Shown: in pieces, positions 1 to 4,531 of the stretch
Layout of the letters: the number at the start of each line of letters is the position of its first letter
Position numbering within the stretch: position 1 is the stretch's first letter
Source of the DNA: an uncultured Caulobacterales bacterium
GTDB lineage: Bacteria > Pseudomonadota > Alphaproteobacteria > Caulobacterales > Maricaulaceae
Direction of reading: 5' to 3'
Assembly: GCA_938003545.1 (NCBI GenBank)
Contig: CALKXY010000002.1
Span: 1 to 64,000, forward strand
DNA: 64,000 nt
Notes under the pieces: generated by a model
Told to the model about the DNA's origin: nothing
What the model saw: only the letters and a program-made list of their open reading frames with translations
Databases searched by the model: none
Position numbers and translations under genes: made by a program

Positions 1-523
1 GTCTTCTCACAACGGGCGACCAAGCGTACGTTGGCTTGTTCGGTGAGGGGCGGCGCTTGTCATTGGATGATGCTGGGTAACGTCAGCAGAGTTGGGTGGC
101 CTATCGCGAGCTGATTGAGCCTAGACTGTTCTGTTCGGCCGATAGTGGAAAAAAGCGTCGTCGCGAGGGTCCCTATGGGGCCGAAAACCACATTGTTATT
201 CCGGTTCCGCCGGGCCCTGAAATACCCTCGCGAACATCCCGTAAAACGGAACATTTTTCCAACGAAGACAACAGAGACTAAGAGATACAGGAAACCTCTA
301 AGAAACAGAGGCTTCCGAGGAAACGCAGAAAATGGAGTAACCCATCCATGCCTCTATGCGTCATCACATGACCTGTTCTTGTGATCCATCAGTAACCTAC
401 TTGTGGATTACAAGGTCGAGCCTTGCAGTGAAGGGGTGAGTGTGGGCTAGCGTCACCCAAGTGCGGGATTACGATGGCGGCATGTGGTTCCGTCTACTTA
501 AAACAACGAATGTAAAAAATACT

Positions 524-548
524 GGGAATTATATACTTAACTAGACAG
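524..548 (+). repeat. Left terminal inverted repeat of IS1595-family element
   Basis: GGGAATTATATACTTAACTAGACAG, matches the right end inverted. Confidence 0.93.
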
Positions 549-549
549 G

Positions 550-747
550 CTAGCGAGCTGTGACCCGAATGGTCACGCATTGGATGGGGTACTCTAAGTC
601 AACCTCAACAGAACCCCTCATATAAGAGCAAGTTACAAAGCCCTCGCGCCTATCAACGACAAGCATGTCAGGGCCACCGCTGTTTAAGGCCACTTTGTCC
701 CCGATAAAGACTCGACTCAATGTCGTTTTTTTACTTACAACGCGCAT
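550..747 (-). CDS. Small DUF2158/YodC-like protein (IS cargo)
   Basis: 65 aa with the motif GDKVALNSGGPDMLVV, typical of the DUF2158 family (G-D-V-x-L-K-S-G-G-P-x-M-T-V). Confidence 0.7.
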   Translation of the reverse strand: MRVVSKKTTLSRVFIGDKVALNSGGPDMLVVDRREGFVTCSYMRGSVEVDLEYPIQCVTIRVTAR

Positions 748-773
748 AGGGTGTGTCTTTTAGGAGTTGGAAA

Positions 774-965
774 ATGGCATTTGAATTAGGTGATGTGGTG
801 CAACTCAAGAGCGGAGGGCCTGTAATGACAGTCACCGCCCTTAGCGAAGGGACAAAAAAAATGGCTCAATGTACTTGGTTCAGTAACAATAAAGAAAGTA
901 GCGGCAACTACCCTGTTGAAGCTCTCGAAGAATTTGAAGCTGGGCCTATGGGATTCATATCCTAG
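774..965 (+). CDS. Small DUF2158/YodC-like protein (IS cargo)
   Basis: MAFELGDVVQLKSGGPVMTVTAL; RBS-like TAGGAG upstream of ATG at 774, so the 753 start in the track is probably too early. Confidence 0.8.
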   Translation: MAFELGDVVQLKSGGPVMTVTALSEGTKKMAQCTWFSNNKESSGNYPVEALEEFEAGPMGFIS

Positions 966-1152
966 ATTGCCCAGGCGAGACCTGCGTAATTGGGGGCTTT
1001 GCGTCACGGTCACCATCTCGCAACGATTGCCAGATAATAAACGGTTCACCGCCAAACATATCAATCATGTTCAACGTGTTGCGCGCCGCTTCTGGCGTGT
1101 AGCCTAGCGCGGTTATGTCCTGAAACGTGGGGTAACCGTGCTTATTGGGCAT
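955..1152 (-). CDS. Small hypothetical protein (IS cargo)
   Basis: 65-aa ORF MPNKHGYPTFQDITALGYTPEAARNTLNMIDMFGG; overlaps the end of the + strand DUF2158 gene. Confidence 0.4.
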   Translation of the reverse strand: MPNKHGYPTFQDITALGYTPEAARNTLNMIDMFGGEPFIIWQSLRDGDRDAKPPITQVSPGQSRI

Positions 1153-1414
1153 GTTAGGACCTTATCTGTGAAGAACCTGCGTCATATCGTTGATAAGAGT
1201 TCTTTTTTTGTTCTCACGTTGAGACTCAGAAGAACAAATCTGAAACACTGAAGAAGCTGATTCTATTTTATGTCGAGGAATTGGTAGGGCGCGGGATGCT
1301 CGAACATCCCGCCACCCTGACACTCACCTGCCGATACAGGAGACTGCGCAGAATGGATTCGTTAGCATTATGCACGTTCAGTAGTCAACCGTCGGCTAAT
1401 ATACGAGGCCACTC

Positions 1415-1711
1415 ATGGCTACTTACGCAATAACCTTCCGCATTTCTGATAAGGGAGACCATGCCGATAGATATCAGTCTTTTCTATCATACGTGACCAC
1501 CGCAAACAAAAGCGAAACACCTTGGGTGGAAACTACCTCATTCCTTCTAATAACCAGTGGTTTGAGCGCAAAACAACTTGCTGACTACCTGATAAATTCA
1601 AAGGTGAATCAGTATAGTGGCGACAAGTTCGCCGTGATTGATGTCGCAAACAAAACGGCGGCTCATTACGGCCTTGAATACCCTTTAGTTTTCAATTCAT
1701 TTTTTGAATGA
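1415..1711 (+). CDS. Cas2-like / SinR-family-like small protein (IS cargo)
   Basis: 98 aa; MATYAITFRIS ... DRYQSFLSYV ... PWVETTSFLLITSGLSAKQLADYL ... DKFAVIDV reads as a beta-alpha-beta-beta-alpha-beta pattern like standalone Cas2-fold proteins. Confidence 0.55.
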   Translation: MATYAITFRISDKGDHADRYQSFLSYVTTANKSETPWVETTSFLLITSGLSAKQLADYLINSKVNQYSGDKFAVIDVANKTAAHYGLEYPLVFNSFFE

Positions 1712-1822
1712 AATACTCGGTGTGAATAGCGACAGGCACGCGCATTAATCGCGCAAACTTCGTAACTATTTTCATTCTGAGCTTTTTCATAAGAACTCGC
1801 CTTCTGGCGGGTTCAACCGCCG

Positions 1823-1954
1823 TTATTTTGGTTTCTGAATCTTCTTATCAGCCGCAAAAAAGATTGCCTTGGCGATCTTCTCCGCAGGTGCGGGGATGGG
1901 CTTAACCTCGTTCTTGACGGGTCGTCCGCGTGGTTTCTTTTCGTTGTCTGACAT
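1823..1954 (-). CDS. 43-aa AT-hook-like miniprotein next to the transposase gene
   Basis: Hand translation MSDNEKKPRGRPVKNEVKPIPAPAEKIAKAIFFAADKKIQKPK*; KPRGRP core; ATG lies 9 bp after the transposase stop on the same strand. Below the length cutoff of the ORF track. Confidence 0.6.
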   Translation of the reverse strand: MSDNEKKPRGRPVKNEVKPIPAPAEKIAKAIFFAADKKIQKPK

Positions 1955-1963
1955 ACGCTAACC

Positions 1964-2929
1964 CTACTTGATTAGGTCCTGATAACGCAAGTGCTTGCCC
2001 ACAAAGCCCTTAGCCAGCAATTCCATCTGAACCATCGTGTCAAAATCGCGGACGTTATGACGGCCTGCAAACTCTGTGATGTAGCGGCTCAAATGCTTGG
2101 CGCTCATCTTGTGATACGTGCCTTTGTAACCGCGCTTTAGCGTAGCCCAAAAGCTCTCAATTCCGTTCGTGTGAGCCATGCCGCGCACATACTCGCCTAT
2201 GGAGTGGTTCACGGTGTGATGGTCGTAGTCAGCGCCTAGGTGCTTATACACCACAGCCGCGTCAGTCATGAGAACAGCATCGTCTTGGCATACGTTGGCG
2301 TAGACCATTGCGGGAGCTTGGTTCTTATGGATATGAGCGACGCGGATTCCACCGTCGCGCTCTAAAATGCCAACAACCGTCTCTTTGTTATTCCATTGCT
2401 TGCGGGCCTTACGGTCTTTCGCATGCATATTCTTGGATTTACCGCCGATATAAGTCTCATCAACCTCAACAACGCCATCCAGCTTTTCACCTTCGTCTTG
2501 ACCATCTAGCCAGCCTTGACGGATTTTCTGCGCAAGCATCCAAGCCGTCTTTTGCGTAACGCCTAAATCACGGTGCAGTTTCATGCTGCTAACGCCCTTT
2601 AGTGACGTAGACATGAGATACATTGCGATAACCCACTTCTGCATCCCGACGCGGCTGGACTGCATAACAGTGCCAGTTTGAACGCTGAAATACTTGCGGC
2701 AATCGCCACAGTGATATGGCATCGGGTTTTCACTTGGGACGGTCTTAGTCTTTAGCGAGCCACAACGCGGGCAATGACGCTCACCTGTAGGCCAGCGCAT
2801 CTCTTCCAGCCATTTACGCGCAGACGCATCATCTGGGAACATTTGAAACAACTGAATAACGCTAAGACCCTCACGGTCAGCGCGTCCCGGTGCTTGGTGA
2901 CGTTGTGTTTTGTTAGTATCGTTTTTCAT
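1964..2929 (-). CDS. IS1595 family transposase (ISXO2-like)
   Basis: Zn ribbon CPRCGS-x16-YHCGDCRKYFSVQTGT and core VVEVDETYIGGKSKNMHAKDRKARK, with C-terminal GIESFWATLKRGYKGTYHK. Confidence 0.97.
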   Translation of the reverse strand: MKNDTNKTQRHQAPGRADREGLSVIQLFQMFPDDASARKWLEEMRWPTGERHCPRCGSLKTKTVPSENPMPYHCGDCRKYFSVQTGTVMQSSRVGMQKWVIAMYLMSTSLKGVSSMKLHRDLGVTQKTAWMLAQKIRQGWLDGQDEGEKLDGVVEVDETYIGGKSKNMHAKDRKARKQWNNKETVVGILERDGGIRVAHIHKNQAPAMVYANVCQDDAVLMTDAAVVYKHLGADYDHHTVNHSIGEYVRGMAHTNGIESFWATLKRGYKGTYHKMSAKHLSRYITEFAGRHNVRDFDTMVQMELLAKGFVGKHLRYQDLIK

Positions 2930-2930
2930 G

Positions 2931-2997
2931 TCTAGTTATATCCCATAAATAGGATATTAGTCAAGAAAAATCGTCTAGTTATGTCCCGAAAGTAGGG
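2931..2997 (-). promoter_or_regulatory. Transposase promoter overlapped by two TIR-like direct repeats
   Basis: Direct repeats TCTAGTTATATCCCATAAATAGGA (2931-2954) and TCTAGTTATGTCCCGAAAGTAGGG (2974-2997). Minus strand -35 TTGACT (2959-2964), 18-bp spacer, -10 TATAAC (2935-2940). Confidence 0.6.
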
Positions 2998-2999
2998 AG

Positions 3000-3662
3000 C
3001 TAACCCGCTAGATTGCTTATCAAACCGTCCAGATTCTGCCGATACCAAAGATATTCTGATACTTGGCTGGCCTTTTCATTATCTAACCCTAACTTTCCAA
3101 CCAGGTTACTGGCCAGCATCGGAATCATAGACGGACCTAAAGTGTTTGCAGCACTCTTATCGTATATTCGATACTTAATAAAATCTCTGTCTGGTCTTTC
3201 AGCTATGTCCCGCTCAATAGTGTCGAACCCGTCTTGAGCCAACGCCATAAACTCATCCGCATCGATTTCTTTGCTGCTCAACTTTTTCTCCAAGTCCTTA
3301 AAAATAACAGCGAAGGAAGCAAAATACCTTTGGAGTTCAGCCCTATCTGTGTGGGAGCGCAAGTCTTTTGACAAATCCACAATCTCTGTGGATTTTCGTT
3401 TGTCTTCCCTAGCAGGGGTCGCGATTAAGTCCAAAACCCCGTAAAACATAAAGGTCAAAACTATCGCGACTGCTAGAGCCGCCGCCTCTGTAATTCTCTC
3501 TGCTAATGGTATCTTTGCGTAAACCAAGACTAGCCAAAAAACCGCCGTCGTCAAAATCGACTTCACGATACTGGACCTATCTGGAACAAACCCGTCCGCC
3601 GTTGAGCGCAGGGAAGTACAAAGGATCTTAAAGTAGTATTTGGGAATATATAGCATGCCCAA
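3000..3662 (-). CDS. Hypothetical membrane protein (IS cargo)
   Basis: 220 aa, two hydrophobic segments (SILTTAVFWLVLVYAKI; ALAVAIVLTFMFYGVLDLI) followed by a charged helical C-terminal region. Confidence 0.65.
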   Translation of the reverse strand: MGMLYIPKYYFKILCTSLRSTADGFVPDRSSIVKSILTTAVFWLVLVYAKIPLAERITEAAALAVAIVLTFMFYGVLDLIATPAREDKRKSTEIVDLSKDLRSHTDRAELQRYFASFAVIFKDLEKKLSSKEIDADEFMALAQDGFDTIERDIAERPDRDFIKYRIYDKSAANTLGPSMIPMLASNLVGKLGLDNEKASQVSEYLWYRQNLDGLISNLAG

Positions 3663-3736
3663 ATTCTTAGCAGGACTCCACTTAGGCGCGCAATGTATTG
3701 ATTTGATAGGGGTGGGGCGAGCAGCCCCTTTAAGGA

Positions 3737-3761
3737 CTGTCTAGTCATGTATATAATTCCC
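3737..3761 (-). repeat. Right terminal inverted repeat of IS1595-family element
   Basis: CTGTCTAGTCATGTATATAATTCCC; reverse complement matches 524-548 at 23/25. Confidence 0.93.
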
Positions 3762-3768
3762 AAAATAC

Positions 3769-3813
3769 TTTACATTTCTTACGGTCTTCCCGTATGTAAA
3801 ACATATTTTACAT
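3769..3813 (+). promoter_or_regulatory. Promoter and operators of the membrane protein/XRE operon
   Basis: TTTACA (3769-3774), 18-bp spacer, TATGTA (3793-3798). Palindrome ATGTAAAA-CATA-TTTTACAT at 3794-3813. A second similar palindrome is split by the IS. Confidence 0.6.
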
Positions 3814-3825
3814 AGAGGCAATGAT

Positions 3826-4302
3826 ATGACGCGTATTGAAGACATGAGTTCCACACAACGTCAGGCTTGGTTGGTCTTATTGGCTGATGGGGCAGTGTTT
3901 GTTTGGTTTTGGCAGAAGATGACATCTGGCCTGACTGTACGTCCCATTAATTACGACATTAGTGATTTTGGTGCGATCATTGTGGGGGTCGTTATTCTTA
4001 CAATTATCTTACATGCGGCTATTGCCGCAATCTTTGATATTATGTCGAAGTCCGAAAAGACTGCACGTGATGAGCGAGATGTAGAGATTGAACGCCGAGG
4101 TTCTCATATTGGTTACCGTATCCTACAATTTGGTATCGGTGCCGTGATCGTACTCATGTTGACCGGTGCAGGCATGGATGGAGGCTTTGAGCAGCCCATC
4201 GAATTGATCATACCCGTGCAGATAATTTTCGCACTTATGGTCGTTAGCTATATCGCTGATTTAGTCAAACATGCTGTGATGATCCATGGATATGGTCGCT
4301 AA
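3826..4302 (+). CDS. Predicted membrane protein, DUF2178-like
   Basis: 158 aa with four hydrophobic segments and a charged DERDVEIERRGSHIGYR loop; overlaps/abuts an XRE regulator. Confidence 0.7.
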   Translation: MTRIEDMSSTQRQAWLVLLADGAVFVWFWQKMTSGLTVRPINYDISDFGAIIVGVVILTIILHAAIAAIFDIMSKSEKTARDERDVEIERRGSHIGYRILQFGIGAVIVLMLTGAGMDGGFEQPIELIIPVQIIFALMVVSYIADLVKHAVMIHGYGR

Positions 4303-4303
4303 A

Positions 4304-4531
4304 ATGGGTGGTAAGAAAACCACGATTACAAATCATATCAAGCGGGTTCGATTGGCTCGCACAGATTTATCGCAGGCGGCTCTAGCTGCTCGAGTTGGTG
4401 CAACGCGACAAACGATCATTGCTGTGGAGGCGCAGAAATATGCGCCATCTCTCGAGCTTGCTTTTCGTCTTGCGCATGTTCTGGATGAGCGCATAGATAT
4501 GTTATTCGTTTTTGCGCCCGAGTGGGATTAA
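4304..4531 (+). CDS. XRE-family transcriptional regulator
   Basis: MGGKKTTITNHIKRVRLARTDLSQAALAARVGATRQTIIAVEAQKYAPSLELAFRLAHVL, a typical HTH-XRE; start ATG 4304 is more likely than 4286. Confidence 0.9.
   Translation: MGGKKTTITNHIKRVRLARTDLSQAALAARVGATRQTIIAVEAQKYAPSLELAFRLAHVLDERIDMLFVFAPEWD

Follow-up and report, generated by a model that had tools for sequence, protein, structure and literature searches.

A passenger-carrying IS1595-family element at the centre of a putative operator and the recurrent insertion of its relatives into the same operator class

Why does an insertion sequence lie at the exact centre of a short palindrome upstream of a regulator-containing operon, and do its relatives do the same? 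The question arises from the left part of the 64,000-nt stretch analysed here (the window), which comes from an uncultured Caulobacterales bacterium. Positions 524-3761 form a complete IS1595-family element of 3238 bp, with one transposase gene and roughly 2.2 kb of non-transposase sequence. Its terminal inverted repeats (TIRs; left, 524-548, + strand, GGGAATTATATACTTAACTAGACAG; right, 3737-3761, - strand, identical to the left at 23/25 positions) and the perfect 8-bp duplication AAAATACT (516-523 and 3762-3769) are exactly as described in the first-pass annotation. The TIRs start with GG (GGGAATTATATAC), the duplications of relatives are also 8 bp long, and the transposase domains agree with these features in supporting the IS1595 assignment proposed there. 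The element is single-copy in its own genome (a 76%-complete draft). What had been overlooked is the nature of the target. When the flanks are rejoined they read ATGTAA-AAAATACT-TTACAT, a 20-bp palindrome of the form ATGTAA-N8-TTACAT whose centre is the duplicated octamer; the left half-site ATGTAA lies at 510-515 and the right half-site TTACAT at 3770-3775. Because the target is itself a palindrome, the inverted repeat extends beyond the TIRs into the flanks (509-548 / 3737-3776, 40 nt, 85%).

The split palindrome is the distal of two tandem copies, the proximal one being intact (3794-3813, ATGTAAAACATATTTTACAT). They precede two genes on the + strand, of which the first, a host gene outside the element, encodes a DUF2178 membrane protein (3826-4302, Pfam PF09946, 1e-6) and the second an XRE-type HTH regulator (4286-4531, Pfam HTH_3, 6e-10). 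The palindrome is termed an operator on account of where it lies and of its tandem arrangement, ahead of an operon that includes a regulator, and it would be that of the XRE regulator. The empty-site operator sequence is given by ATGTAAAAAATACTTTACAT. In the same-genus genome G029 an uninterrupted copy, ATGTAAAAAATACTTTACAC, one base off the rejoined window flanks, lies upstream of the DUF2178-XRE operon and provides an empty site in a close relative. Most of the approximately 30 DUF2178 upstream regions compared retain two or three intact operators. The DUF2178 gene of the window has no second copy in its genome (G000) at E<=1e-5, and the operon is likewise the sole one in G163, G203 and G315. 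In relatives, a gene is assigned to DUF2178 by its similarity to the window protein; for those of G315, G203 and G198 the Pfam model gives no match at E 0.01.

The transposase (321 aa, 1964-2929, - strand) matches Pfam DDE_Tnp_IS1595 (8.3e-35, profile search) and NCBIfam NF033547 (5.6e-50) and carries an N-terminal zinc ribbon (Zn_ribbon_IS1595, 1.4e-9). D157, D223 and E258 are likely its catalytic residues, as judged by inspection of the alignment. The nearest transposases (81-83%) come from metagenome-assembled genomes labelled Robiginitomaculum and Hellea; no relatives were found in viral contigs. Directly downstream lies a 43-aa AT-hook-like ORF (1823-1954, - strand, KPRGRPVKNE). Each close relative whose element was mapped has this ORF too, as a rule immediately behind the transposase gene, and in the six closest mapped elements it lies just 3' of that gene. 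The basic-flanked GRP core is present as RGRP in 6/6 aligned close relatives, and in the G561, G650 and G342 elements similar RGRP ORFs lie close to the far end. The first-pass annotation counted this miniprotein as cargo, a view opposed by its recurrence and by constraint at the protein level (pN 0.07-0.34 vs pS 0.54-1.0). On these grounds it is classed as a conserved accessory core gene rather than variable cargo.

Genes other than these two differ among relatives and are therefore regarded as passengers. All the passenger ORFs announced for the window are present in its sequence. Two of them had been described as DUF2158-like: the 63-aa protein at 774-965 (+) clearly is (Pfam PF09926, 3e-14, 52.8 bits vs a gathering score of 22.3; PHROG_3261, 7e-16), while the 65-aa protein at 550-747 (-) stays under the gathering score (0.0057, 16.8 vs 22.3 bits). 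A second 65-aa ORF (955-1152, -) is the only window passenger found within another element (on contig C7 of G321, 59% identity). The 98-aa ORF at 1415-1711 (+) resembles PHROG_18921, of unknown function (9e-7), and has no match in Pfam, NCBIfam or PADLOC, so that family searches lend no support to its earlier Cas2/SinR-like label; an AlphaFold2 model made without an alignment is of low confidence (pLDDT 55). The 220-aa protein (3000-3662, -, TTG start; 218 aa from the first ATG) belongs to no convincing family and has a hydrophobic N-terminal part, as seen by eye; no homologues were found on plasmids. None of the window passengers matches a PADLOC defence family.

Elsewhere, DUF2158 occurs near the transposase of one relative (L150) where the element ends are unmapped, and the G163, G203, G330 and G319 elements carry passengers of 266-309 aa in which a hydrophobic segment can be seen by eye. 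The 300-aa passenger of G315 (L043 4774-5676) resembles PDC-S42 (1e-7), a candidate defence family in PADLOC. Judged by sequence similarity, the cargo set is specific to the window copy, apart from the AT-hook-like and the shared 65-aa ORFs. Some two dozen related elements flanked by perfect 8-bp duplications were mapped. They are 1.7-4.3 kb long, and non-transposase DNA is therefore common in this part of the IS1595 family. That the transposase recurs between TIRs with other duplications and other passengers leaves the initial description of a passenger-carrying mobile element standing.

Insertion into this type of operator is not confined to the window; it has happened repeatedly with relatives of the element in further marine bacteria. 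Beyond the window copy, eight genomes hold ten IS1595-type insertions in operators of this class (one each in G163, G203, G315, G198, G358, G367 and G218, three in G357). Both orientations occur and the phase is always the same. The insertions occupy different operator copies. That of G198 is a 422-bp remnant. In G357 all three tandem operators hold an insertion or a remnant; the proximal one contains a distant IS1595 element (transposase 34% identity) with the perfect duplication AACAAGTT. In G218, which belongs to another family, an element with a transposase of approximately 40% identity lies in the distal operator. These last two events come from distantly related IS1595 lineages. The G203 copy occupies a contig that corresponds exactly to the element, TIR to TIR; two more contigs end 141 bp inside it and their flanks share the duplication AACAAATT, a pattern to be expected of an element that is repeated in the sample or that differs from strain to strain. 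Comparison with relatives suggests that the left and right halves of the G163 copy derive from different operators, which would explain its mismatched duplication.

Four of the operator events are visible on one side only, three have imperfect duplications, the G367 case is degenerate and the genomes compared are mostly draft assemblies. The elements of G163, G203, G357, G358 and G367 point one way and those of G000, G315 and G198 the opposite way; orientation is shared within genera, which makes the independence of the events uncertain. At least three are independent by lineage, and probably more. When the events are counted by hand and three target positions are assumed per 2.8 Mb, a rough estimate of their chance occurrence is 1e-51, or 1e-15 with just three independent events, to be read as orders of magnitude only. 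Elements with the same TIR type also lie outside these operators, in G330, G319, G561, G346, G266, G317, G352, G356 and others, and as a second copy in G358 (duplication CAATGATC).

Several other loci show related arrangements. The G319 relative (L047 1324-1698, 3892-5340) splits what appears to be a single gene, of which the downstream piece matches RVT_1 (3e-11) and the upstream piece has no Pfam match. In G735 (L148 2586-6123), the duplication CATGTTTC is followed by ACGTGAAACATT, and together they resemble a parS palindrome. In the same-genus genome G291 (L218 ~2536-3283), a TIR lies near a site matching window position ~390 and is followed by the C-terminus of the HTH gene; a deletion has apparently removed DUF2178 and the greater part of the HTH gene. 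In G300 (L229 1884-3309) an element with no detectable transposase contains a passenger resembling those of G330/G163 and, at 82% identity, a match spanning the whole AT-hook ORF. After this element comes a stretch that matches the C-terminus of the XRE regulator; the left flank reads ATGTA then AAAAATCT.

Taken together, we consider it probable, at about three chances in four, that the window element is an IS1595 variant with passengers and a conserved accessory gene, and that its targeting of one operator class is strong and non-exclusive. Such an element consists of the TIRs, the zinc-ribbon/DDE transposase, the small co-oriented AT-hook-like protein and an exchangeable passenger set. The transposase, perhaps aided by the AT-hook protein, would prefer the operator as target, which would make the 8-bp-duplicating insertion at the exact centre of the distal operator targeted rather than random; the relatives' insertions, in other genomes, orientations and operator copies, are consistent with this. 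Sequence-precise targeting is the simplest reading of the fixed phase. The least certain part of this proposal is the mode of recognition, which may involve the naked operator DNA or the XRE regulator bound to it.

Recruitment through the regulator is the most serious competitor, although it appears distinctly less probable: the operator-bound XRE protein would attract IS1595 transposases or bend the DNA into a good target. The presence of three divergent IS1595 lineages in one operator class suggests that something about the target itself matters, and these genomes contain further loose palindromes (ATGTAA-N8-TTACAT with one mismatch) that hold no element. However, the contact is only putative, and most of the loose matches differ from the true operators in the AAA/TTT core, so that sequence alone may suffice. 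A more elaborate version, in which the host repressor-operator complex serves as landing pad, the AT-hook-like protein acts as targeting factor and half-site-like element tips partly rebuild the operator beside the operon, is doubtful. The tips beside the operon read ATGTCC in G163, G315, G357 and G358 and ATGTAA in the G198 remnant, and those of the window and G203 elements do not resemble a half-site; partial restoration of the half-site by ATGTCC tips after insertion may be taken as a lead, not a rule.

It is less likely still that IS1595 elements simply favour palindromes or AT-rich DNA, the operators being the best local example. Many duplications in relatives are AT-rich and two sites (L023 and L145) are central in palindromes; nevertheless, AT-richness alone predicts no fixed phase at one operon, and over 29 non-operator sites of IS1595 relatives pairing outside the duplication shows no excess (2.93 vs 2.72 +/- 0.26, p=0.23), for which reason a general palindrome preference was rejected. 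Vertical inheritance of one or two ancestral insertions, with later exchange of cargo, would account for the orientation common within groups and seems improbable: different operator copies are occupied in both orientations, the genera differ, most related genomes keep intact operators, and the events in G357 and G218, from distant IS1595 lineages, contradict it. Random insertion followed by selection, the disrupted operator benefiting the host through a possible deregulation of the operon, is very improbable, since insertion at many positions would disrupt the operator, whereas the events observed are all in a single phase.

Where could target preference reside? The transposase appears mosaic when compared with those of G330, G319 and G561: residues ~160-240 diverge sharply and most of both flanks are 75-97% identical. 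Among the four close operator insertions this segment shows 70-85% identity; in three close relatives inserted elsewhere it shows 25-55%, and the flanking regions are conserved. Outside these elements it was found just as a broken fragment in G291 and as a 43% plasmid match in Methylocystis. The segment is a lead as targeting determinant. A swap of this segment as sole determinant was rejected, as the operator insertions of G218 and G357 do not share it.

The transposase promoter region (2930-2996, -) contains two copies of the inner-TIR motif TAACTAGAC, 43 bp apart; across six elements the spacing is 43-44 bp. They are likely the relic of an older end and/or predicted transposase binding sites, and the arrangement would fit both the relic and autoregulation. 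In G561, where the transposase adjoins the TIR, the TIR stands at the position of the upstream motif. Passengers lying between the transposase and its nearer end may have been gained through a new outer TIR, the inner half of the old one being left behind as the promoter motif. The set of elements offers a readable record of passenger-gene gain by an insertion sequence.

Members of the IS1595 family, which comprises the ISPna2, IS1016, IS1595, ISSod11, ISNwi1, ISNha5 and ISH4 groups, usually have a single transposase gene and are flanked by 8-bp duplications (PMC8101967). The window element resembles them in its DDE_Tnp_IS1595 domain and zinc ribbon, GG-starting TIRs and duplication length, and differs in having passengers and a conserved AT-hook-like gene and in the recurrent use of operators as targets. 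It would represent a small natural case of strong, sequence-precise target preference by a DDE transposon in a family that usually carries a lone transposase gene and, if confirmed, would provide a direct test of how such a transposase locates an operator and of the host regulator as targeting factor. Literature searches on DUF2178, IS1595 palindromic target sites and operator targeting by insertion sequences, which covered mainly papers outside subscription journals, returned nothing relevant and are weak evidence of novelty. Preferred insertion sites are known for insertion sequences in REP/BIME palindromes and for Tn7 at attTn7. The present elements share with them repeated insertion into one short sequence class in a fixed phase. 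No TnsABC/TnsD-type genes were detected among the element ORFs with Pfam and NCBIfam. In contrast to both systems, the target here is the putative operator of a regulator operon and the targeting is non-exclusive.
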